Source of the DNA: Bacilli bacterium | Lineage (GTDB): Bacteria; Bacillota_I; Bacilli_A; RFN20; CAG-826 | Reading direction: 5' to 3' | DNA: 41,297 nucleotides | Assembly (NCBI GenBank): GCA_017445245.1 | Contig: JAFSUM010000013.1 | Location: forward strand, 1 to 41,297 | Shown here: positions 23,211 through 38,404 of the stretch, in pieces | Layout of the letters: every line of letters begins with the position of its first letter | Numbering within the stretch: the first letter of the stretch is position 1 | The notes under the pieces: generated by a model | The model's database searches: none | Seen by the model: the letters and a program-made list of their open reading frames with translations, nothing else | Told to the model about the DNA's origin: nothing | Translations under genes and position numbers: made by a program

Positions 23211-23360
23211 ATGGCTCGTAAGAAAGTTTTTTTGATCTGCACCGAATGTCTAAGCCGCAACTATACCCTCAGCAAGCGCAGCGATGATCCGGTTCGGCAG
23301 GAACTCAACAAGTTCTGCCCGCGCTGCAACAAGCACACCTTGCACCGGGAAAGCAAATAA
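23211..23360 (+). CDS. rpmG: 50S ribosomal protein L33
   Basis: 49 aa, starting [20 protein letters not shown]. Two CxxC pairs (CTEC and CPRC) make this the zinc-binding form. It contacts the E site of the large subunit. GAAAGGTAAGA precedes the ATG. It lies directly before secE and nusG, as in Bacillus. Confidence 0.96.
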
Positions 23361-23371
23361 GGAGGATTCCC

Positions 23372-23566
23372 ATGACGCCTAAAAAATACATGTCGGAGGT
23401 CGCGAAGGAAGGCAAGCGCATCCGCTGGCCCAAGCGCGACGTTCTCATCCCCGCGATCGTCGTGGTCGTCATCATCGCCGGCGTTGCCGCCCTCTTCCTT
23501 TCGATTGAGGACCTTGCCGCCGGCAGAATCATCAGCATCCTGAAAGATGCATTCGGAGGTAAATAA
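23372..23566 (+). CDS. secE: Preprotein translocase subunit SecE
   Basis: 64 aa. Cytoplasmic amphipathic helix (KYMSEVAKEGKRIRWPKRD) followed by a single membrane helix at about 26-46 (LIPAIVVVVIIAGVAALFL). It clamps the two halves of SecY in the SecYEG channel. The KRIRWPKRD motif is the SecE hallmark. GGAGG lies 8 nt before the ATG. The gap to rpmG is 11 bp. Confidence 0.96.
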   Translation: MTPKKYMSEVAKEGKRIRWPKRDVLIPAIVVVVIIAGVAALFLSIEDLAAGRIISILKDAFGGK

Positions 23567-23568
23567 AC

Positions 23569-24123
23569 ATGGCCGAACAACTTGGCGAAAAGCAATGGTA
23601 TATCGTTAATACCTACTCTCAGCACGAATCGAAAACCGCGGATAACCTGATCAAGCGTATCGACACCATGGGCATGAAGGACCTCATCCTTCGCGTCCTC
23701 GTCGCCGAACAGGAAGTCCCCGTCCTCAAAGACGGCCTCCCGACCGGTAAGACCAAGAAGGTCAACCTCTATCCCGGTTACATCTTCGTCGAAATGATCA
23801 TGACCCACCAGTCCTGGTTCATCGTCCGTAACACTCCGGGTGTCACCGGTATTACCGGTTCCGGCGGTGGCGGTCAGATGCCGACCCCCGTTTCCCGTGA
23901 GGAAATGGAAGCCGTTCTTAAGAGAATGGGTTGGGTCGACGATTCGATGTACGATCGTTATGCCCCCGGCGATGCCGTCCGCGTCATCCATGGACCTCTC
24001 GAAGGAACCGAAGGCAAAATCATCTCCATCGACAAAGCCACCGGCGTCTGCCGCGTCGAGACGATGTTCTTCGGCCGTGTCACGCCCGTCGACGTCGACT
24101 TCTCCGAGATCGAAAAGCTCTAA
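23569..24123 (+). CDS. nusG: Transcription antitermination/termination factor NusG
   Basis: 184 aa. NGN domain (WYIVNTYSQHESK, LYPGYIFVEM, WFIVRNTPGVTGITGSGG) that binds the polymerase clamp, and a C-terminal KOW domain (GDAVRVIHGPLEGTEGKI). It couples transcription to ribosomes or Rho. Start two bases after the secE stop. A terminator follows, so unlike in Bacillus it does not continue into rplK. Confidence 0.98.
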   Translation: MAEQLGEKQWYIVNTYSQHESKTADNLIKRIDTMGMKDLILRVLVAEQEVPVLKDGLPTGKTKKVNLYPGYIFVEMIMTHQSWFIVRNTPGVTGITGSGGGGQMPTPVSREEMEAVLKRMGWVDDSMYDRYAPGDAVRVIHGPLEGTEGKIISIDKATGVCRVETMFFGRVTPVDVDFSEIEKL

Positions 24124-24141
24124 GGAGAATTCCGATTCCAT

Positions 24142-26968: not shown

Positions 26969-27619
26969 TTATCGAATAACCCTTTTGAGTTCTTCGGGGG
27001 TTTCCGCAAAGAAATCGGCATCGTTTTTTACGGCTTCGTAATCAACTTCGTACCCCCAGCCGCATAAAAGAACCTTCATGCCAGCGTTATGACCGGTCGC
27101 GATGTCAACGTGGCTATCCCCGATGAATAAGCATTCCTCCGGTTTCGCCCCAACTTCATTTAGATACTTGAACACGAAAGCGGGATTTGGTTTGACCGGA
27201 TCTCCTTCGTTGATACCATAGATCCGTTCAAAGAACCCTTCTCCAAAATGCATCGGGACGATAACTTGGGCAAGAGCGTCCGGCTTATTGGTCACGACCG
27301 CCATGCGGATTCCTTGATTCTTGAGTTCGGTAAGAACGGCATTTAAACCCAAAAATGGTTTGGCCCGTTCCGTCTGGTGTTCCTTATATAGGGCCATATA
27401 CACCGGCTTGAGAAGTTGAAACTCTTCTGGATTATCATGGTTGCGAAGAGCCCGATGAAGCAAAGCATCCGCCCCATCCCCGACTAAGGTTTTCGTCCCC
27501 TCGCGGTCATAACGCCACGGATATCCTTTTTGTTCCAACGCCGAATTAATCGCGAAAGTGATGTCATCGATCGTGTCGAGAATCGTGCCATCCAAATCGA
27601 AAATCAAATAGTTATACAT
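26969..27619 (-). CDS. HAD phosphatase, phosphoglycolate phosphatase/PpaX-like
   Basis: 216 aa from ATG 27617-27619 (MYNYLIFDLDGTILDT). Motif I DLDGTILD, motif II VVTNKPDAL, motif III in GDPVKPNPAFV, motif IV FIGDSHVDIATGHNAG, and a helical cap between motif I and II. These match Gph and the related pyrophosphatase PpaX, which clear 2-phosphoglycolate or pyrophosphate. The frame is open for 48 further codons upstream, but these cover promoter DNA. TATAAT lies 7 nt before the ATG and no Shine-Dalgarno site is present. Confidence 0.88.
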   Translation of the reverse strand: MYNYLIFDLDGTILDTIDDITFAINSALEQKGYPWRYDREGTKTLVGDGADALLHRALRNHDNPEEFQLLKPVYMALYKEHQTERAKPFLGLNAVLTELKNQGIRMAVVTNKPDALAQVIVPMHFGEGFFERIYGINEGDPVKPNPAFVFKYLNEVGAKPEECLFIGDSHVDIATGHNAGMKVLLCGWGYEVDYEAVKNDADFFAETPEELKRVIR

Positions 27620-27626
27620 TACATAT

Positions 27627-27632
27627 ATTATA
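27627..27632 (-). promoter_or_regulatory. -10 box 7 nt before the gph-like gene
   Basis: Perfect TATAAT on the minus strand; TTAATG lies 17 bp upstream as a weak -35. Transcription would begin at the start codon. The region from here to 27795 is AT-rich and otherwise holds no gene. Confidence 0.6.
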
Positions 27633-27795
27633 CGGGCATTATGCGCACGCATTAACGTCTGAAAAACACACGTAAAAAATGTTTTAAAATTTTCAAAAAC
27701 ATGAAAAACATCGATAGCATCGAATAAAAAAGAATAGATGCCATCGGCTGAAACCGCTTTCATTTATTTTTTCAAAAAAATTTTGCAAAAAAGTG

Positions 27796-27824
27796 TTGCA
27801 TTCATTTTTATTTCTTTCTATAGT
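27796..27824 (+). promoter_or_regulatory. Promoter of the giant ncRNA
   Basis: TTGCAT (27796-27801), 17-bp spacer, TATAGT (27819-27824). Upstream, 27760-27795 is A/T-tract DNA resembling an UP element. The predicted start at about 27829-27831 coincides with the first stem of the RNA (CCTCGCAA). Confidence 0.75.
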
Positions 27825-28011
27825 TATCGTCCTCGCAAGGGAACGGGGTTGCAAAACTCCGAAATTGCGAGAGGCCAAAACCGGGTTCGCCCGGCTCTGG
27901 TGAAGGGAATGCAAGATGCCCCGAGGGCCGTCAAAAGCCTCAAAGGTCTGCTCCTTCGAAAGAAGGGAACTGACGCGGCTTGAACTTCGTCAGTAAAGGA
28001 ACTCCCGCCCC

Positions 28012-29196
28012 TCGGTAAACCGAAGAAAGAGGAAACGCCTGAAGAAACCGCCTAGCGATCCTAGACGGAAGGAAGCAAGCGTCAAGGGCCCTTAGCCGAA
28101 AGGCGAAGGAAGCCACCGCCTAGAACCCTGGCGGCAAGCAAACTTGTAAGAAGGGGTTCTCCGAAAAGCCTTGGAAAGGGAACATTCGGAAGCAGGACCA
28201 AGCCGAACTTCACCGGAAGTCCTCGTGGGAACGGAAACGCCCACCCAGTACACTGGAAAAACGTTGCGTGCCGACAAAACCTCTCTCCCTGAGGCACAAT
28301 GCGGCAAAGGGCAACACCCGCTAGGAATCCTCCCCAGCCTGGTAAACCAGAAAAACGAAGGATGATGGTAGACGCTGATCAAAGCTCAGCCAAACCACCC
28401 AAGGGATTCGGGTAACCGAACCTCGCGGAGTAATCGAGCCGCCAGATGGAATCTGAAGAATTCGGTCGGAGAGGAACTTGGCTTCCCAAAAGGAAGTTCA
28501 CCCCTCCCCAAAGACGGGCTCCCATGAAAATGGATCTGTCCGGAATGGAATTCCAACCATTCGTCGGTAGAACCGACAGAACAAAACGGGATGCGGAAGC
28601 GATTCCGCTGACGGGAGAAAAACCCGCGGCCTTGACTTAGCGGCCGATGTAAACGAAAAAGCTTGTCTCCGCCAGGAAAGACGGCCAACCACCGCGACTG
28701 CCTGATACGGTAACCACCCCTGCCTGAATAAGGCTCCGGGTGGGGCGCATCCCCTTAGCCGGTGAAACCGAAAAACGGGAATACGAATCCTTCGGGCCTT
28801 TGGGGTCAGGTGGATCCGAAAACAGCCAGGAATTCATAACTGGTTGGTGCCAAAAGAGGCTCGGCGCGCGGTAAACCGCTGGAAATGCCTCGAACCTGAT
28901 CGAGAGGTCAGGCAGACGAAGACCTTCGGGTCCTCGAGGAAGTCGTTCCACCCTGAATCGTAAAGTCGGAACGTGGTCGATGCACTTAGGCGAATGAAGA
29001 TGTAACCTAAGGCAAAGGTCGAGACCCCTCAAGCCTCGCGGCAATGAAGGGCCTAGGGAGATAAGAAATCTCCTCGCCGGTAAACCGGAGAAACAAAAAT
29101 CTTGCCTCTGAACGGAACCGATTCAAGTCGGCCCTCCAGTAAGAGACGGATGTCGCAAGACAGCGGTTGGTTGGAATCTCCCGCGTGGTAAACCAT
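28012..29196 (+). repeat. Five GGUAAACC hairpin modules inside the ncRNA
   Basis: Four-base-pair stems with an invariant GG-UAAA-CC core lie at 28012-28023 (TCGG/CCGA), 28339-28350 (CTGG/CCAG), 28868-28879 (GCGG/CCGC), 29077-29088 (CCGG/CCGG) and 29185-29196 (GTGG/CCAT). The outer two pairs differ yet remain paired in every copy. Each is followed by an A-rich strand (for example AGAAAG, AAAAAC, AGAAAC). Looser relatives occur at 28411 (GGTAACC), 28709 (GGTAACC) and 28761 (GGTGAAACC). Confidence 0.8.
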
Positions 29197-29261
29197 GAAT
29201 TGCTCGTTCCCGTCGTGAGTTGGAGCTAACAAAGACGTTAAACCAGCAAGCCAAGCGGACA

Positions 29262-29290
29262 CCTCGCAGTGATGCGAGGCGTTTTCTTTT
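29262..29290 (+). terminator. Rho-independent terminator of the ncRNA
   Basis: CCTCGCA (29262-29268), loop GTGA, TGCGAGG (29273-29279), then CGTTTTCTTTT. The 5' arm is identical to 27831-27837 at the RNA's 5' end, so the 3' arm could alternatively close the whole molecule. Confidence 0.85.
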
Positions 29291-29391: not shown

Positions 29392-30165
29392 ATGGAAGAA
29401 TACATATTGGAAGCCAAGTCGCTCCGCAAGACGTTCGCCCTTACCAATAAGCAGCGTCAGGAACGCCATCTCAATACATTGAATCTCGTCGCCGTAGACG
29501 ATCTATCGCTCCACCTGGTGCCTGGTGAAATCTACGGTCTACTCGGTCCTAATGGGGCGGGCAAGACTACAACCCTGCGCATGCTTTCGTCTTTGATCGC
29601 CCCGACGGGAGGCGAAGTTCTATTTCGCGGCGAAAACATCCACAAAAATATCAAAAACTATCGCAAAAAGGTCGCGTTTTTAACTTCGGATCTGAAATTG
29701 GACGATTTCTTTACTCCCGACTATACCTTCACCTATTTCGCGACTTTATATGGTATGAGGCCTGAGGAAACGGCCAAAAGGAAGGCCGAGCTCTTCGCCC
29801 AGTTTGGTATCGATCGCTTCGCCACGGCCCAAATCAAAAACCTCTCAACCGGCATGAAGCAGAAAGTCTCCCTCGCCGTTTCCCTTTGCCATGACCCCGA
29901 GGTCATCATTTTCGATGAACCAACCAACGGGCTAGATATCATTGCCTCACGTGACGTCGAGAACTTCTTGCTGAACCTCCGCCGCAAAGACAAAGCCATC
30001 ATCATCTCGACCCACATCTTCTCCCTGGTCGAAAAACTATGTGACCGGGTTGGCATTATTGATGAAGGTAAACTAAAACTCGAAGGAGACATCAAAACCC
30101 TGACCGCAGATCGGTCTATCGAAGATGTCTTCTTCGGCCTCGTTGACGGAAGGAGGGAAGACTGA
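29392..30165 (+). CDS. ABC transporter ATP-binding protein, NatA-like
   Basis: 257 aa. Walker A GPNGAGKT (52-59), signature LSTGMKQK (151-158), Walker B IIFDEPTNGLD (D175-E176) and H-loop STHIF (H208). It powers the NatB-like permease whose start overlaps its stop (ACTGATG). AGGAGG (29381-29386) precedes ATG 29392 and a GATAAT -10 lies at 29368-29373, about 80 bp after the ncRNA terminator. NatAB of Bacillus exports sodium; related systems export other small molecules, so the substrate is open. Confidence 0.92.
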   Translation: MEEYILEAKSLRKTFALTNKQRQERHLNTLNLVAVDDLSLHLVPGEIYGLLGPNGAGKTTTLRMLSSLIAPTGGEVLFRGENIHKNIKNYRKKVAFLTSDLKLDDFFTPDYTFTYFATLYGMRPEETAKRKAELFAQFGIDRFATAQIKNLSTGMKQKVSLAVSLCHDPEVIIFDEPTNGLDIIASRDVENFLLNLRRKDKAIIISTHIFSLVEKLCDRVGIIDEGKLKLEGDIKTLTADRSIEDVFFGLVDGRRED

Positions 30166-31356: not shown

Positions 31357-31394
31357 AAAAGGATGTCTAGGCCAAATGGCGACGACATCCTTTT
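31357..31394. terminator. Bidirectional terminator
   Basis: AAAAGGATGTC (31357-31367) and GACATCCTTTT (31384-31394) form an 11-bp stem. A T-rich run follows on both strands, serving the plus-strand permease and the minus-strand lipoprotein. Confidence 0.85.
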
Positions 31395-31396
31395 CG

Positions 31397-34027
31397 TTAA
31401 GCTTCAATGGGCGGAATGCTTCCTGGCTCGATAAGAACGGAGCCTCCATAAAGATCCCTGGTCATATCGCAGAGAACGGAATGGAAATAGAAATCGAACC
31501 CAAGGCGATATTTGTCTTTCTCAACCGTCGCGACCACGTCTTTGGGGAACGTGACGGCAAATTTCACGTTGAAATACGGGTCGTCATTCGGTTCTACGAC
31601 AAACCCCTCCTGACCAAGAAGAATGGGTTCGCTTTCGTGATAATTGTCTTTATTGGGCTGTCCCCAAATGGTCATACCTTCAAAAAGGGAAAGGGCATCA
31701 TAGTCTTCGTCGGACTCTGGATTAACGACCCCCTCCTTAGGAAGGGCGACCTGACGAACGAAACCTTCTACGAGCAAGTCGCCGTTCTCCTTTCGGGACA
31801 GCGACACTTCGTCCTTGATGTCATAATGACGGGCCAAAGCCCCGTTTTCGGTATAGGTAGGCAACGTCAAGGCGTTCAGCAAAGAATCATAAGACCATTC
31901 TTTTCCATCAAAATGAATGACGTGTTCTGGATCGACGGCATTCGTATCCGTGCCCCAGTTCAGCGTGAAGCTTGAGCGATTGTCTGAGCAAAGAAGTTCA
32001 AAGGGAAGATAAGCGCTCATAGTACTGCCGGAAATGTTGCCAAAGCCGATATCGTATTGGCCCACCATCATCTTTTTATAGTAGATATCCGACCAGACGT
32101 CCCCTACCCATTGCGTGACTTTCAGGGTCAAAGGGTTCGTGCCGTCATTGAAGGCCTCCGTCCAGAATTCGGCGAGCGGTTCCCCGATGGAAGCGATTTG
32201 GTCCTTGGTCTGCCAAGCCACCTCGATTTCGATTTCGTCCCCGGCTTTATAAAAGCCCTCTTCAATCAATTTTTCGGAGGCCTTGCGGAACGACTCACGC
32301 GCCTTTTCCAACGAATATCCATAGCCGTCCGTCCCCTCGGCAATAGAGGCAATGGCCGCTTTGTGCTCCGGGCTTCTCATATAAGAAATCCCGTTTAATT
32401 CGTCCAGAATATAGTTTTCGCCAAAAAAGTCCATCGACGGAACTCTTCCTAACATTTTTGCGAGGGTTTTGCGGTCTAAAGCAAAACTTAATCCGGAAAC
32501 GAAATCCTTGTTCGACATCGCGGGTTCGACTTCCCAGTAGTCTTCTTTCGGCGTTTGGACGATCGCGCCGTTTTCGCCAAATTGCTTTTCCCAGAACGCC
32601 TCGTCGCAAGTATTCATATTAAGGCGATACGTCCCGGCACTCGACGTCATGCAAACGCGTGGATCATCACAATACTCTGCCCATTGATCCGCAGGAAGAT
32701 AAGCGGCGTGAAGCTTGTTATCCAAAAAGGCCGCGAACGTCTTGTCGCTTGAGATAAACTGGGCGTGCACGCCTTGAATTCGATATCGGTCGCCGTCTTG
32801 GTAATAGGGGTTACGTTTGAAGGCTACGTATTCGTCCTTCGCCCATTCTTCGATTTGATAAGGGCCGACAGAGAGCCAATGGTCCGCAATCGTTTCGGTT
32901 TCGGTTTCAGTGCCCCAAATAGCCGTTCCCGCGGCGAAATCACCTCCACCGATTTCGGTGATGAATTCTGCCGGGACCGGGGAAAACATCGGGTTGCTAA
33001 GGTAGTACGTGGCGCGAAAAAGGTCACAGGCATAGTTGAACGTGAATTCCAAATAAGATTTACCGTCTTCCTCAAGAGAGCGAATGCCGACCTGTTCCCA
33101 AAGCTCTTCGTTAAATCCTTCTTTGGAGCCGGCGTAATAATCTTTCGTTCCTACAAACGAGGCAGCACCGGTGAGGTTTTCTCCTCCGCGCGCCATATGA
33201 TAGGCTTGGGTATAAAGGATTTTATACGGAGTGACATAATCCTCTAACGCGACGGGACGGCCGTTGAAGGAGGCGTATTTTTCCGACATCGTCCCATAAC
33301 GAACCTCGTCCCCCACCTTAACTTCGACCCGATACGTCGTCGCATAGCCTTTTTCGTCCGCGTCGATAACAATTGGATGACGTTGAGGAGACAATTCGCC
33401 AGACCACTCGTAATGATCCTTAGCCGCAGCAAGCTTTCTGGTATAGTAGGAGGCCCCTACAAATGCGTTCAACTCCTGCCCGGCCCTTGTTTTGCAGTTC
33501 ATCGTGTTAATCTTGTGTGGGTCCGCGTCTTCGGAAGTGTGCCAATAACGCTTCCACGCCTCGTTTGTTTCGCCTTCGAGGTCTCCGGTCAAACTACCTT
33601 CTTCCAATGTTCCAAAGCCATAACCTGGAACATATTCCTCCGCGCCTTTAAGGACGGAGGGGTGATACATGAGGTAGCTACCATCACCATAAAGGGTCAA
33701 GCCGGTCAATTTGTTCTCGACGGCAAACTTTTCTAGCTGGCCTAGTGCCTCGATTTTCGTCTCGTTATCTTCATAAGCCAAATAACGGACATCTTGAACG
33801 ACGGGATTGAGATCCTCTGAAGAAGAGATCGACGAAGGTCCTTCAGAAGAGATCTCGGAGGAGAGTTCGGAAGACCCCTCAGAGGATACTTCGCTTGTTT
33901 GCTGCGACTCGGAAGAAGCCTCACTGGTGTCCCTGCTACTAGCGACAGATGAAGAGGATTCGCCCCCGCCGCAGGCAGACAAAAGAATAGAAACAGCGAT
34001 TATCCATGCAAAACGGTTCTTTTTCAT
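31397..34027 (-). CDS. Solute-binding lipoprotein, peptide-binding (family 5) type
   Basis: 876 aa from ATG 34025-34027. The signal peptide ends in the lipobox LLSAC (C about 19), followed by GGG and a serine/glutamate-rich linker to about residue 70. The segment GPYQIEEWAKDEYVAFKRNPYYQ-type is typical of OppA-like SBP family 5 proteins, but the protein is about 300 residues longer than most. No permease or ATPase for it is adjacent, so it may serve a transporter encoded elsewhere. AAGGGG lies upstream of the ATG and TATTAT at 34045-34050 could be the -10. Confidence 0.85.
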   Translation of the reverse strand: MKKNRFAWIIAVSILLSACGGGESSSSVASSRDTSEASSESQQTSEVSSEGSSELSSEISSEGPSSISSSEDLNPVVQDVRYLAYEDNETKIEALGQLEKFAVENKLTGLTLYGDGSYLMYHPSVLKGAEEYVPGYGFGTLEEGSLTGDLEGETNEAWKRYWHTSEDADPHKINTMNCKTRAGQELNAFVGASYYTRKLAAAKDHYEWSGELSPQRHPIVIDADEKGYATTYRVEVKVGDEVRYGTMSEKYASFNGRPVALEDYVTPYKILYTQAYHMARGGENLTGAASFVGTKDYYAGSKEGFNEELWEQVGIRSLEEDGKSYLEFTFNYACDLFRATYYLSNPMFSPVPAEFITEIGGGDFAAGTAIWGTETETETIADHWLSVGPYQIEEWAKDEYVAFKRNPYYQDGDRYRIQGVHAQFISSDKTFAAFLDNKLHAAYLPADQWAEYCDDPRVCMTSSAGTYRLNMNTCDEAFWEKQFGENGAIVQTPKEDYWEVEPAMSNKDFVSGLSFALDRKTLAKMLGRVPSMDFFGENYILDELNGISYMRSPEHKAAIASIAEGTDGYGYSLEKARESFRKASEKLIEEGFYKAGDEIEIEVAWQTKDQIASIGEPLAEFWTEAFNDGTNPLTLKVTQWVGDVWSDIYYKKMMVGQYDIGFGNISGSTMSAYLPFELLCSDNRSSFTLNWGTDTNAVDPEHVIHFDGKEWSYDSLLNALTLPTYTENGALARHYDIKDEVSLSRKENGDLLVEGFVRQVALPKEGVVNPESDEDYDALSLFEGMTIWGQPNKDNYHESEPILLGQEGFVVEPNDDPYFNVKFAVTFPKDVVATVEKDKYRLGFDFYFHSVLCDMTRDLYGGSVLIEPGSIPPIEA

Positions 34028-34682: not shown

Positions 34683-36488
34683 TTATTCTTCGTCGAGCTT
34701 GTACTGCGGACGATTATCGACGTAGCTCGTATGGAGGAGCTCTTCGCTAAGTTCGGAGCAAGGCTCGCCAAGGAATTTCTCGTAGAGTTCCTTGATGTCG
34801 GGGTTGTTGTGCGATTGACGGAGGGTCATGCCCTTATCGATATCGTAGAGGACCTTGGCGCGCTTCTCGCGATAGGTGTCGAGGATATCGGGCCCTTCCT
34901 CGGGTTTGAGGTTGGGTTTGACGAAGGGTTGGCCACCGCCGTTGATGCAGCCACCAGGGCAGCCCATGATTTCGATGAAAGCGTAGGGGGATTTACCAGC
35001 GCGAACATCGTCGAGAAGTGGCTTGGCATTACGCATGCCAGAGGTGACCGCGATCTTGACCTTGGTGCCCTTGATGTCGATTTCAGCTTCCTTGACCGCT
35101 TCGAGACCACGGCAGGCGTGGAAGTCGATGGGGCCATATTCCTCACCGGTCATCCAGAAGTAGGCCGTACGAAGGGCCGCTTCCATAACACCGCCGGTGA
35201 CGCCGAAGATAACGCCAGCGCCAGAGTATTTGCCCAGCAGATCCTGGTCGAATTCTTCTTCGGGGAGTTCGTCCCAGAGGATACCGGCGCGGCGGATCAT
35301 CACCGCGAGTTCGCGGGTGGTGAGGACCGCGTCGACATCGGGGAGCTTCTCCACTGCCGCATTCTGCGGACGGTCGGCTTCGTACTTCTTCGCGGTGCAG
35401 GGCATGACGGAGACGACGAAGATGTCCTTCGGGTCGAGGTTATGCGTCTTGGCGAAGTAGGATTTGATGATCGCGCCTTCCATCTCGTGCGGAGACTTGC
35501 AGGTGGAGATATGCGGGATGATGTCCTTATAGAAGAACTCCATGTAGTTGATCCAGCCCGGAGAGCAGGAAGTGATCTGCGGGAGGACGCCGCCTTTGGT
35601 AATGCGGATAAGGAGTTCCTTGGCTTCTTCCATGATGGTGAGGTCGGCGCCGAAGTTGGTGTCGAAAACCCTGTGGAAACCAAGGCGATGGAGGGCGGCG
35701 GTCATCTTACCGGTGCCATCTTGTTCGCCAACCTTGTGGCCAAATTCTTCGGCGATGGCGGAACGGACGGCCGGAGCAGTCTGGACGATGACGTATTTGC
35801 CCTGTTCGAACGCGCGGTCGACGAGGTCGATTTCACGGTGTTCGCTCAAAGCGCCCGTCGGGCAGACGTTGATGCACTGACCGCACTGGATGCAGGGAAC
35901 ATTGGCGAAAGAAGCGTTGCCAGTCGGAGCGACGATGGTCTTGAAGCCGCGCTTCTCAAAGCCGAGGATGCCGATGCCCTGAGCTTCTTTGCAGCGCTCG
36001 ATGCAGCGGCCGCAGAGGATGCACTTGGAGGTATCGCGGATGATGCCAGGGGCGCATTCGTCGAGCGTGGTCTCGGTCTTCGCGCCTTCATAAGCGCCCT
36101 GACGGGCACCGGTGATGTTAGCGACTTCGAGGAGTTCGCACTGACCGTTTTTGACGCACTGCTGGCAGTCTTTGGAGTGGTTGGAGAGGAGGAGTTCGAC
36201 GGAAGCGCGACGGGCTTTGACGGCCATCGGGGAAGAGATTTTGATCTCGAAGCCCTTTTCGGCCGGGATGTCGGCGACCGGGTAGACGCAGGAGGCGAAG
36301 AGCTTGCCGCCGCGGGCAGTCGCGATTTCGACCAAGCAGACGCGGCAGGAGGCAAGGCTGTTCTTGCCATGGTTCCAGTAGCAGAGGGTGGGGATGTTGA
36401 ATCCGCAAAGGCGCGCGGCCTCGAGAACGGTCAAATTCTTGGGGACGGAGTAGATGCGGCCTTCGATTTTGATGTTAATGTTTTCCAT
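34683..36488 (-). CDS. hydA: [FeFe]-hydrogenase catalytic subunit HydA (multimeric, NAD-linked type)
   Basis: 601 aa from ATG 36486-36488, preceded by AAGGAGGG. In order: an N-terminal [2Fe-2S] domain (C36, C48, C51, C67), a His/Cys cluster H104-C108-C111-C117, two [4Fe-4S] motifs (C156-C166 and C199-C209), then the H-cluster domain with TSCSPGW (306-312), MPCTAKKYE (from 362) and IMGCPGGCINGGGQP. It makes H2 from protons, or the reverse. With HydB and HydC it forms the trimer that in Thermotoga and Acetobacterium confurcates electrons from NADH and ferredoxin. Maturases HydE, HydF and HydG are not in the window. Confidence 0.95.
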   Translation of the reverse strand: MENINIKIEGRIYSVPKNLTVLEAARLCGFNIPTLCYWNHGKNSLASCRVCLVEIATARGGKLFASCVYPVADIPAEKGFEIKISSPMAVKARRASVELLLSNHSKDCQQCVKNGQCELLEVANITGARQGAYEGAKTETTLDECAPGIIRDTSKCILCGRCIERCKEAQGIGILGFEKRGFKTIVAPTGNASFANVPCIQCGQCINVCPTGALSEHREIDLVDRAFEQGKYVIVQTAPAVRSAIAEEFGHKVGEQDGTGKMTAALHRLGFHRVFDTNFGADLTIMEEAKELLIRITKGGVLPQITSCSPGWINYMEFFYKDIIPHISTCKSPHEMEGAIIKSYFAKTHNLDPKDIFVVSVMPCTAKKYEADRPQNAAVEKLPDVDAVLTTRELAVMIRRAGILWDELPEEEFDQDLLGKYSGAGVIFGVTGGVMEAALRTAYFWMTGEEYGPIDFHACRGLEAVKEAEIDIKGTKVKIAVTSGMRNAKPLLDDVRAGKSPYAFIEIMGCPGGCINGGGQPFVKPNLKPEEGPDILDTYREKRAKVLYDIDKGMTLRQSHNNPDIKELYEKFLGEPCSELSEELLHTSYVDNRPQYKLDEE

Positions 36489-36502
36489 TTGTTCGGCCCT
36501 CC

Positions 36503-38404
36503 TTATTTCTTGATGATGGCCCCGAAGTGGCAGCCAGCCATACAGGAGCCGCACTTGATGCACTTGCTCTGGTCGATGGCGTGGACGAATTTGTTCGGGA
36601 GCGGCTTGACGGTGACAGGATCGGCGGTCGGCGCGATGCAGCTCACCGGGCAGTTACGGGCGCAGAGGGTGCAGCCCATGCACTTTTCGGGAAGGATCTG
36701 ATATTGCATCAGGTTCTTGCAGACGTGGGCGGGGCACTTCTTCTCTTTGACGTGCGCTTCGTATTCTTCGGGGAAGTTCGTCATCGTGGAGAGAATCGGG
36801 TTCGCGGCGGTCTGGCCGAGAGCGCAGAGGGAGCCGTTTTTGATGACGGTGGCGAGTTCCTTCATGTCTTCGAGGGTCTTTTCGGTGCCCTTGCCTTCGG
36901 TGATGGCAGTGAGCATTTCGAATAGACGCTTCGTGCCGATACGGCAGGGTGAACACTTACCGCAGGATTCGTCGACGATGAAGTCCATGTAGAAGTGGGC
37001 GATGTCAACCATGCAGTTGTCTTCATCCATGACGATCGCGCCGCCGGAACCCATCATGGAGCCACGGGCGACGAGGGTGTCGTAGTCGATCGGGGTGTCG
37101 AGATCTTTCTCGGTCAAGCAGCCGCCGGAAGGACCGCCGGTCTGAATGGCTTTGAAGGCCTTGTTGCCCGGGATGCCGCCGCCGATGTCATAGACGAGGG
37201 TGCGGAGGGTGGTACCCATCGGGACTTCGACGAGGCCGACGTTGTTGACCTTGCCGCCGAGGGCGAAGACCTTGGTGCCCTTGGAGCCTTCGGTGCCGAT
37301 GCAGTTGAACGCGCTCGCACCTTCGCGAAGGATGAAGGGAATCTGGGAAAGGGTTTCGACGTTATTGACGCAGGTAGGCTTGCCCCAGAGGCCTTTGATG
37401 GCCGGGAAGGGCGGACGGGGACGCGGCATGCCGCGCTGACCTTCGATGGAGTTAAGAAGAGCGGTTTCTTCGCCGCAGACGAAGGCACCGGCGCCAAGAC
37501 GGATATGGGCACGGAAGCTGAAGTCGGTACCGAGGATGTGATCACCGAGCAAGCCAACTTTCTCCATATCTTCGATGGCGCGTTGCAAACGCGAGACCGC
37601 GACGGGGTATTCGGCACGGACATAGAAGTAGCCTTCGGAAGCGCCGAACGCGTAGCCGGCGATCATCATACCTTCGATGACTTCGAAGGGGTTGCCTTCG
37701 AGGATCGAGCGGTCCATGAACGCGCCGGGGTCGCCTTCGTCGCCGTTGCAGACGACATATTTCTGATCGGCCTGGACATTGGCCGCGAATTGCCATTTAC
37801 GGCCGGTGGGGAAACCACCGCCGCCACGGCCGCGGATGCCAGAGGCGAGGACTTCGTCGATGACTTCCTGCGGGGTCATTTGGGTGATGGCCCGCTTCAA
37901 GCCTTTGAAGCCGTCGTAGCCGAGAGCTTCTTCGAGTAGGTCCGGATTGATGAGAGAGCAGCCATGGAGAGCGATACGGACTTGCTTTTTGTAGAAGTTG
38001 ATATCGTCTTGCTTAGCGACTTTCTCGTGGGTCTGCGGGTCAACGTAAAGGAGATTCTCGCAGATTTCTCCGCCGATGATGTCCTTCTCGATGATCTGTT
38101 TGACATCGGAGACCTTAACGGCGCGATAGAGGGTATCTTCGGGGAAGATTTTGACGAAGGGACCCTGGGAGCAGAAGCCGAAGCAGCCGACGTGGTTGAC
38201 GGTGACTTTGTCTTCGAGGCCGTGAGCCTTGAGTTCCTTCTCGATCTCGGCCTGGATATCGACCGAGTTATTGGCGATACAGCCCGTGCCACCGCAGACG
38301 ACGATGGCGCGCTTGCCGCCTTCGCCCTTCAATTTGGCATGAAGGACTTTGGTACATTCCGCGATATGGGTATCGAGGGATTGGACGGTTTTGATTTGTT
38401 CCAT
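36503..38404 (-). CDS. hydB: HydB, NuoF-like NADH/FMN subunit
   Basis: 633 aa. An N-terminal thioredoxin-like [2Fe-2S] domain (CGGTGC, then HVGCFGFC), a NuoF core with the FMN/NADH region GIRGRGGGGFPTGRKW and NGDEGDPGAFMDR, the [4Fe-4S] motif ESCGKCSPCRIGT, and C-terminal two-cluster ferredoxin (CMGCTLCARNCP and CIKCGSCMAGC). It binds NAD(H) and FMN and passes electrons to HydA. It starts two bases after the hydC stop, with GGAGG inside the end of hydC. Confidence 0.95.
   Translation of the reverse strand: MEQIKTVQSLDTHIAECTKVLHAKLKGEGGKRAIVVCGGTGCIANNSVDIQAEIEKELKAHGLEDKVTVNHVGCFGFCSQGPFVKIFPEDTLYRAVKVSDVKQIIEKDIIGGEICENLLYVDPQTHEKVAKQDDINFYKKQVRIALHGCSLINPDLLEEALGYDGFKGLKRAITQMTPQEVIDEVLASGIRGRGGGGFPTGRKWQFAANVQADQKYVVCNGDEGDPGAFMDRSILEGNPFEVIEGMMIAGYAFGASEGYFYVRAEYPVAVSRLQRAIEDMEKVGLLGDHILGTDFSFRAHIRLGAGAFVCGEETALLNSIEGQRGMPRPRPPFPAIKGLWGKPTCVNNVETLSQIPFILREGASAFNCIGTEGSKGTKVFALGGKVNNVGLVEVPMGTTLRTLVYDIGGGIPGNKAFKAIQTGGPSGGCLTEKDLDTPIDYDTLVARGSMMGSGGAIVMDEDNCMVDIAHFYMDFIVDESCGKCSPCRIGTKRLFEMLTAITEGKGTEKTLEDMKELATVIKNGSLCALGQTAANPILSTMTNFPEEYEAHVKEKKCPAHVCKNLMQYQILPEKCMGCTLCARNCPVSCIAPTADPVTVKPLPNKFVHAIDQSKCIKCGSCMAGCHFGAIIKK

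Follow-up and report, generated by a model that had tools for sequence, protein, structure and literature searches.

The 41,297-nt window, the whole stretch of DNA analyzed here, carries a predicted transcription unit between a HAD-family hydrolase gene and an ABC transporter ATPase gene, comprising a promoter, a giant structured noncoding RNA (ncRNA) and an intrinsic terminator (Table 1). About 1,430 nt separate promoter from terminator without a plausible gene. Direct reading of the sequence gives a −35 element TTGCAT (27796–27801), a 17-nt spacer (27802–27818) and a −10 element TATAGT (27819–27824), and the 5′ end of the RNA is set at the predicted start, ∼27831. A first-pass annotation had placed promoter and terminator at coordinates that direct reading and a terminator scan show to be correct to a few bases. 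The window's own −35 is missed by a strict promoter scan because it is weak against the consensus; its TTG is kept in 29/29 copies of the unit, and the exact TTG...TATAGT arrangement in 21/29. The terminator pattern is confined to genomes that bear the RNA, with no matches in a reversed control. From the UP-like tract upstream of the promoter, strong transcription is predicted. Orthologues of the HAD hydrolase align only from about residues 42–49, and its ORF is probably over-extended; the true start would lie near 27619, which places the promoter in intergenic DNA. Elsewhere in the window, ORFs at 23305–24141 (278 aa), 31376–31975 (199 aa) and 34731–36701 (656 aa) have no Pfam match.

Table 1. 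Features of the RNA locus and its immediate neighbors (window coordinates)
Feature	Position	Strand	Basis or remark
HAD-family hydrolase	26969–27763	−	left neighbor, outside the system
A/T-rich UP-element-like tract with A-tracts	27757–27795	+	A/T and an AAAAAA block upstream of nearly all copies
Promoter	27796–27824	+	sequence; conservation among copies
Giant structured ncRNA, ∼1,460 nt	27831–29290	+	26 type-I homologues, covariation
5′ and central region	27831–28795	+	sequence variable (mean column identity 0.69), structure kept by compensatory changes
Pseudoknot 1	28327–28363	+	loop 28328–28332 with 28357–28362
Pseudoknot 2	28550–28592	+	hairpin loop 28551–28553 with 28589–28591
Pseudoknot 3	28744–28760	+	28745–28747 with 28757–28759; crosses helix 28749–28754/28777–28782
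3′ domain, most conserved third	28795–29257	+	mean column identity 0.80
Hairpin with GAAUUCAUAA loop	28825–28843	+	
Near-invariant core with hairpin GCGG-UAAA-CCGC	28846–28891	+	common to both types and to the copies of the sister genus
Intrinsic terminator (hairpin and T-tract)	29258–29290	+	terminator scan; conserved among copies
ABC transporter ATPase	29392–30165	+	right neighbor, outside the system

The first-pass annotation had described at least ten hairpins capped by GNRA or UUCG loops at a density beyond chance. A strict count of perfect stems (≥4 bp) yields eight, short of that number, but the density is indeed far above expectation: six GNRA hairpins against 0.31 expected (maximum 3 in 500 dinucleotide shuffles) and two UUCG hairpins against 0.02. 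Four UAAA hairpins (0.03 expected) are also present, and perfect tetraloop stems of all kinds number 20, compared with 6.0 ± 2.6 in the shuffles. The folding energy of the ncRNA lies at z = −4.8 relative to shuffled sequences. The longest ORFs on the RNA strand and on the opposite strand match no Pfam family above the cut-off, and the open frames vary in length and frame among copies, with none conserved, in agreement with the original reading that the region has no coding frame.

Of 31 genomes in the genus, 19 have homologues by BLASTN, often as two or three full copies per genome; related rumen bacteria carry from one to at least three, and the window's own genome has two, at 76% identity. 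The majority (type I; 26 copies of 1.39–1.47 kb, a few ending at a contig edge) run from promoter to terminator with the same ends and a mean identity of ∼64%. Three type-II copies of 1.56–1.60 kb (G026:C21, G026:C22 and G011:C18; L061–L063), ∼130 nt longer, share the core, promoter and terminator with type I and are strongly diverged in the remainder. The promoter-to-terminator unit is thus inherited as one piece. Contigs of metagenome-assembled genomes (MAGs) stop within the RNA or at its border, much like those that break at rRNA operons, so that copy numbers are lower bounds. Such contig ends occur at L032, L033, L034, L048, L052, L055, L057, L058, L059, L060 and L064.

RNAalifold places 74 helices in 23 type-I copies at −756 kcal/mol, compared with −248 kcal/mol for shuffled columns. 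Covariation was assessed in an alignment of 26 sequences and 1,458 columns by a G-test with average-product correction, with 20 alignments simulated on the tree as the null; the procedure follows the principle of R-scape in code of our own and is not the R-scape program. The consensus structure of these divergent copies contains 387 base pairs. From ∼1.06 million column pairs, 21 reach E<0.05 over the phylogenetic null, and 20 of these are predicted pairs; the last, 28551–28591, is complementary and non-nested and corresponds to a pseudoknot. Mutual-best covarying columns make up 123 of the 387 predicted pairs; a control with shuffled columns, taken through the same folding step, gives 1 of 233. 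Compensatory changes in which each pair type occurs in at least two copies affect 214 pairs, and 66 pairs show all four Watson-Crick types. For example, the pair 28597–28604 occurs as AU in 3 copies, GC in 6, CG in 9 and UA in 8, and 28523–28532 is paired in every copy (CG 1, GC 11, AU 10, UA 4). The homologues therefore exhibit the compensatory stem changes, rather than codon-like conservation, on which the first-pass annotation had made its RNA reading depend, and the fold is under strong selection. The complementary strand folds with nearly equal energy (−746 versus −756 kcal/mol), so the strand is set by the promoter, the terminator and the excess of GU over AC cells (787 versus 332), all of which identify the plus strand as the RNA. 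Among unpaired positions, 42% are A.

We consider it virtually certain that this is a structured ncRNA gene. The contrary view, that chance structure, decayed coding sequence or a misread protein gene accounts for the region, could appeal to long minus-strand open frames of up to 349 codons in some copies. However, these frames are not common to the copies and have no Pfam match above the cut-off, and the covariation refutes this view, to which we assign a negligible probability.

The RNA contains at least three pseudoknots. All 26 copies form the four inner pairs of pseudoknot 1, and these pairs show both C-G/G-C exchanges and T-A/C-G/A-T exchanges. The three pairs of pseudoknot 2 form in 24/26, 26/26 and 24/26 copies and include the column pair that passes the phylogenetic null, and those of pseudoknot 3 form in 25/26, 25/26 and 23/26. 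Within the 3′ domain, the GAAUUC sequence at 28830–28835 is the sole recurrent self-complementary hairpin loop and is a candidate self-kissing loop; its self-complementarity is not strictly kept, as it is palindromic in only 18/26 copies.

No match to any of 4,227 families (Rfam 15, gathering score) was found in the whole 41-kb window, and the RNA region at E≤10 returned only noise; ten related loci likewise assigned the RNA to no known family. Models for group I and II introns, rRNA, tmRNA, RNase P and SRP RNA do not match the RNA region. The tmRNA and SRP RNA models matched at other places in the related loci, indicating that the search works. Literature searches outside preprints and subscription papers returned work on OLE, ROOL and GOLLD, and none of the titles and abstracts listed describes a large RNA from this bacterial group. 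The Rfam search proposed in the first-pass annotation has thus produced no rRNA, intron or other family, and its suggestions of an undescribed class, longer than most, stand against Rfam 15 and the literature searched. Relative to Rfam, we are highly confident that the RNA is a new class.

The host range is narrow. Among 279 genomes of the order, R1, a model built on the conserved core of the RNA, is positive in 22, which belong to two genera of one family, and the RNA is present in four sister-genus genomes; class (395 genomes) and phylum (392 genomes) samples gave no match beyond the window's own genome. In a one-genome-per-species collection of ∼85,000 species, a 22-base core motif matched only MAGs titled Bacilli, Erysipelotrichaceae, Bacillales or Firmicutes, with one exception; the sources named in these titles are the rumen, omasum or abomasum of goat, roe deer and water deer. 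The exception, in Erythrobacter, is taken as a chance match, its score being confined to the motif itself. The host, judged from these sequence matches, appears to be one family of uncultured ruminant-gut Bacilli. No copy was found in phage and plasmid records by blastn or in viral contigs by two motif scans. The RNA was also not found in G005, G009 and G010, well-assembled genomes of the same genus, and is therefore dispensable in them.

Copies lie between unrelated genes (oligopeptidase F/RuvX, seryl-tRNA synthetase, RecN, nitroreductase), the setting that the first-pass annotation had predicted for homologues, and clustering of the flanking proteins revealed no recurrent partner gene beside them. 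In several species one copy adjoins, or lies within ∼5 kb of, an M18 aminopeptidase gene, a loosely shared arrangement. There is no tRNA in the 41-kb window. Neither protein genes nor phages nor tRNA clusters are linked to the RNA gene. At L038 (8300–9056, G004:C7), genes for a RelB antitoxin and for a second small toxin-like product lie directly downstream of an RNA copy, and beyond them stands an orphan copy of the last ∼36 bp of the RNA, its terminator.

In five relatives, cysS, HAD, ABC permease and ABC ATPase, the neighbors in the window, are contiguous without the RNA, within contig reach; the ABC pair is inverted in the window relative to these five. Close species share RNA positions, with 96–97% identity between G025 and G030 through RNA and flanks. 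On an rpoB tree, presence of the RNA is patchy but clustered, and supported branches force at least four changes; part of the absences may be false, because rpoB was not usable in several genomes and contigs are interrupted within the RNA. The rpoB frames of G013, G008 and G005 (L242, L241 and L243) span ∼1,380–1,430 codons compared with ∼1,240–1,290 in relatives, and an alignment break near residues 695–770 suggests an inserted segment. Two cases suggest exchange between lineages or copies: a G020 copy and a G025 copy are 92.6% identical over 0.9 kb with rpoB DNA at 74%, and at a locus in G003 the flank that lies upstream of one G024 copy is followed by the second G024 copy together with that copy's downstream flank. 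Both may be chimeric assemblies, as contig ends or short contigs are involved.

The multiplicity of copies among unrelated genes, the orthologous site without the RNA, the forced changes on the tree and the signs of exchange would all be expected of a selfish RNA gene that disperses as a non-autonomous mobile unit, the structure of its RNA serving to spread or retain the unit itself. However, neither target-site duplications nor terminal inverted repeats were detected at the copy flanks above mismatched controls, the shared positions in close species imply that movement is slow, and every copy has diverged deeply by compensatory changes, which implies that the RNA itself has long been under selection; the exchange cases, moreover, carry the risk of chimerism noted above. 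We regard this explanation as distinctly unlikely, and it is compatible with either a particle or an OLE-like scaffold as the gene product. A regulatory RNA or RNA sponge that base-pairs with mRNAs is very unlikely: where a genome has several divergent paralogues, each could act on targets of its own, but nearly the whole length is engaged in a conserved fold, and the unpaired stretches are short and either A-rich or near invariant.

On balance, we lean toward reading the whole as a free-standing ∼1,460-nt ncRNA gene of a new class whose product is an abundant particle that folds by itself and may be a homo-oligomer acting as a scaffold or container. In this model, the UP-element promoter would drive strong transcription, and the RNA would fold alone into a compact multi-domain particle held together by GNRA and UAAA loops, pseudoknots and A-rich joints. 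The functional or assembly core may be the conserved 3′ domain, and the faster-changing 5′ and central part may form the periphery of the structure. The precedents of ROOL, GOLLD and OLE suggest that the particle could then self-associate into a homo-oligomer and serve as a cellular scaffold or container. The homo-oligomeric state is a tentative proposal, to which we give somewhat less than even weight. More doubtful is the full form of the idea, that a chromosomal, multi-copy RNA of bacteria builds, by self-assembly and with no protein involved, an RNA particle among the largest in nature.

The main rival is an OLE-like arrangement, in which the RNA would scaffold a ribonucleoprotein with protein partners encoded elsewhere in the genome and perhaps a catalytic or membrane function. 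OLE is ∼600 nt long, binds proteins and occurs in Bacillota, and near-invariant single-stranded stretches of the new RNA (the CAUAA loop, the GAUAAGA loop and AAAAACUUG) resemble binding sites. The absence of a recurrent protein gene beside the copies and of an OLE model match speaks against this arrangement, which we think rather unlikely.

The giant structured RNAs known from bacteria are very few, and the functions of all of them are still open. A 2025 cryo-EM study of OLE, ROOL and GOLLD found that ROOL and GOLLD form RNA-only cages and OLE a dimer, and left open how common nanocages are among large natural RNAs (PMC12286853). The RNA described here makes that question directly testable because it is about twice the length of ROOL or GOLLD, exists in dozens of copies, is multi-copy outside phages and coexists with ROOL; its dozens of divergent natural copies are available for cryo-EM and probing. 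If the particle model is correct, RNA-only homo-oligomers would be a general cellular device, beyond the phage-linked cases. The finding also indicates that ruminant-gut genomes still hide sizeable RNA genes.

Comparison with the known large RNAs places the new RNA among them without assigning it to any. OLE (RF01071) is, like it, a large, highly structured Bacillota RNA. The partner protein gene oapA recurs beside the OLE gene, whereas no protein gene recurs beside the copies of the new RNA. HEARO, the IscB omega RNA (RF02033), is also large, structured and dispersed among unrelated genes, but no recurrent nuclease gene (IscB-type ORF) accompanies the new RNA, and the HEARO covariance model does not match it. 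GOLLD (RF02032) is similarly very large and pseudoknotted; its model matches neither the new RNA nor, in a search run without a positive control, any sequence in the genus. GOLLD is phage-linked, near tRNAs and ∼0.8 kb long, in contrast to the new RNA, which is neither in phages nor beside tRNAs and measures 1.46 kb. A conserved 3′ region and a less conserved 5′ region are described for GOLLD (PMC12286853), and the column identities of the new RNA (0.80 and 0.69) follow the same plan, a resemblance of layout only.

ROOL (RF03087) shares with the new RNA an occurrence in rumen bacteria, an ornate fold with several pseudoknots and a stand-alone gene. ROOL genes belong to phages or prophages and in many cases lie close to tRNA islands; in contrast, the new RNA is more than twice the length of ROOL and has housekeeping chromosomal neighbors, no tRNA in its 41-kb window and no phage or viral matches, and the ROOL covariance model does not match it. 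True ROOL RNAs above the Rfam cut-off are present at other places in two genomes that carry the new RNA, G003 (L250, G003:C128:23787–24351) and G011 (L251, G011:C118:9814–10359), such that two giant RNA classes coexist in the same genomes. With a predicted stand-alone unit of >500 nt, a covarying pseudoknotted fold and no conserved ORF, the new RNA belongs to the known kind of large ornate bacterial RNAs, and because the ROOL, GOLLD, OLE and HEARO models are not matched and the layout alone is GOLLD-like, it is a new class within that kind.
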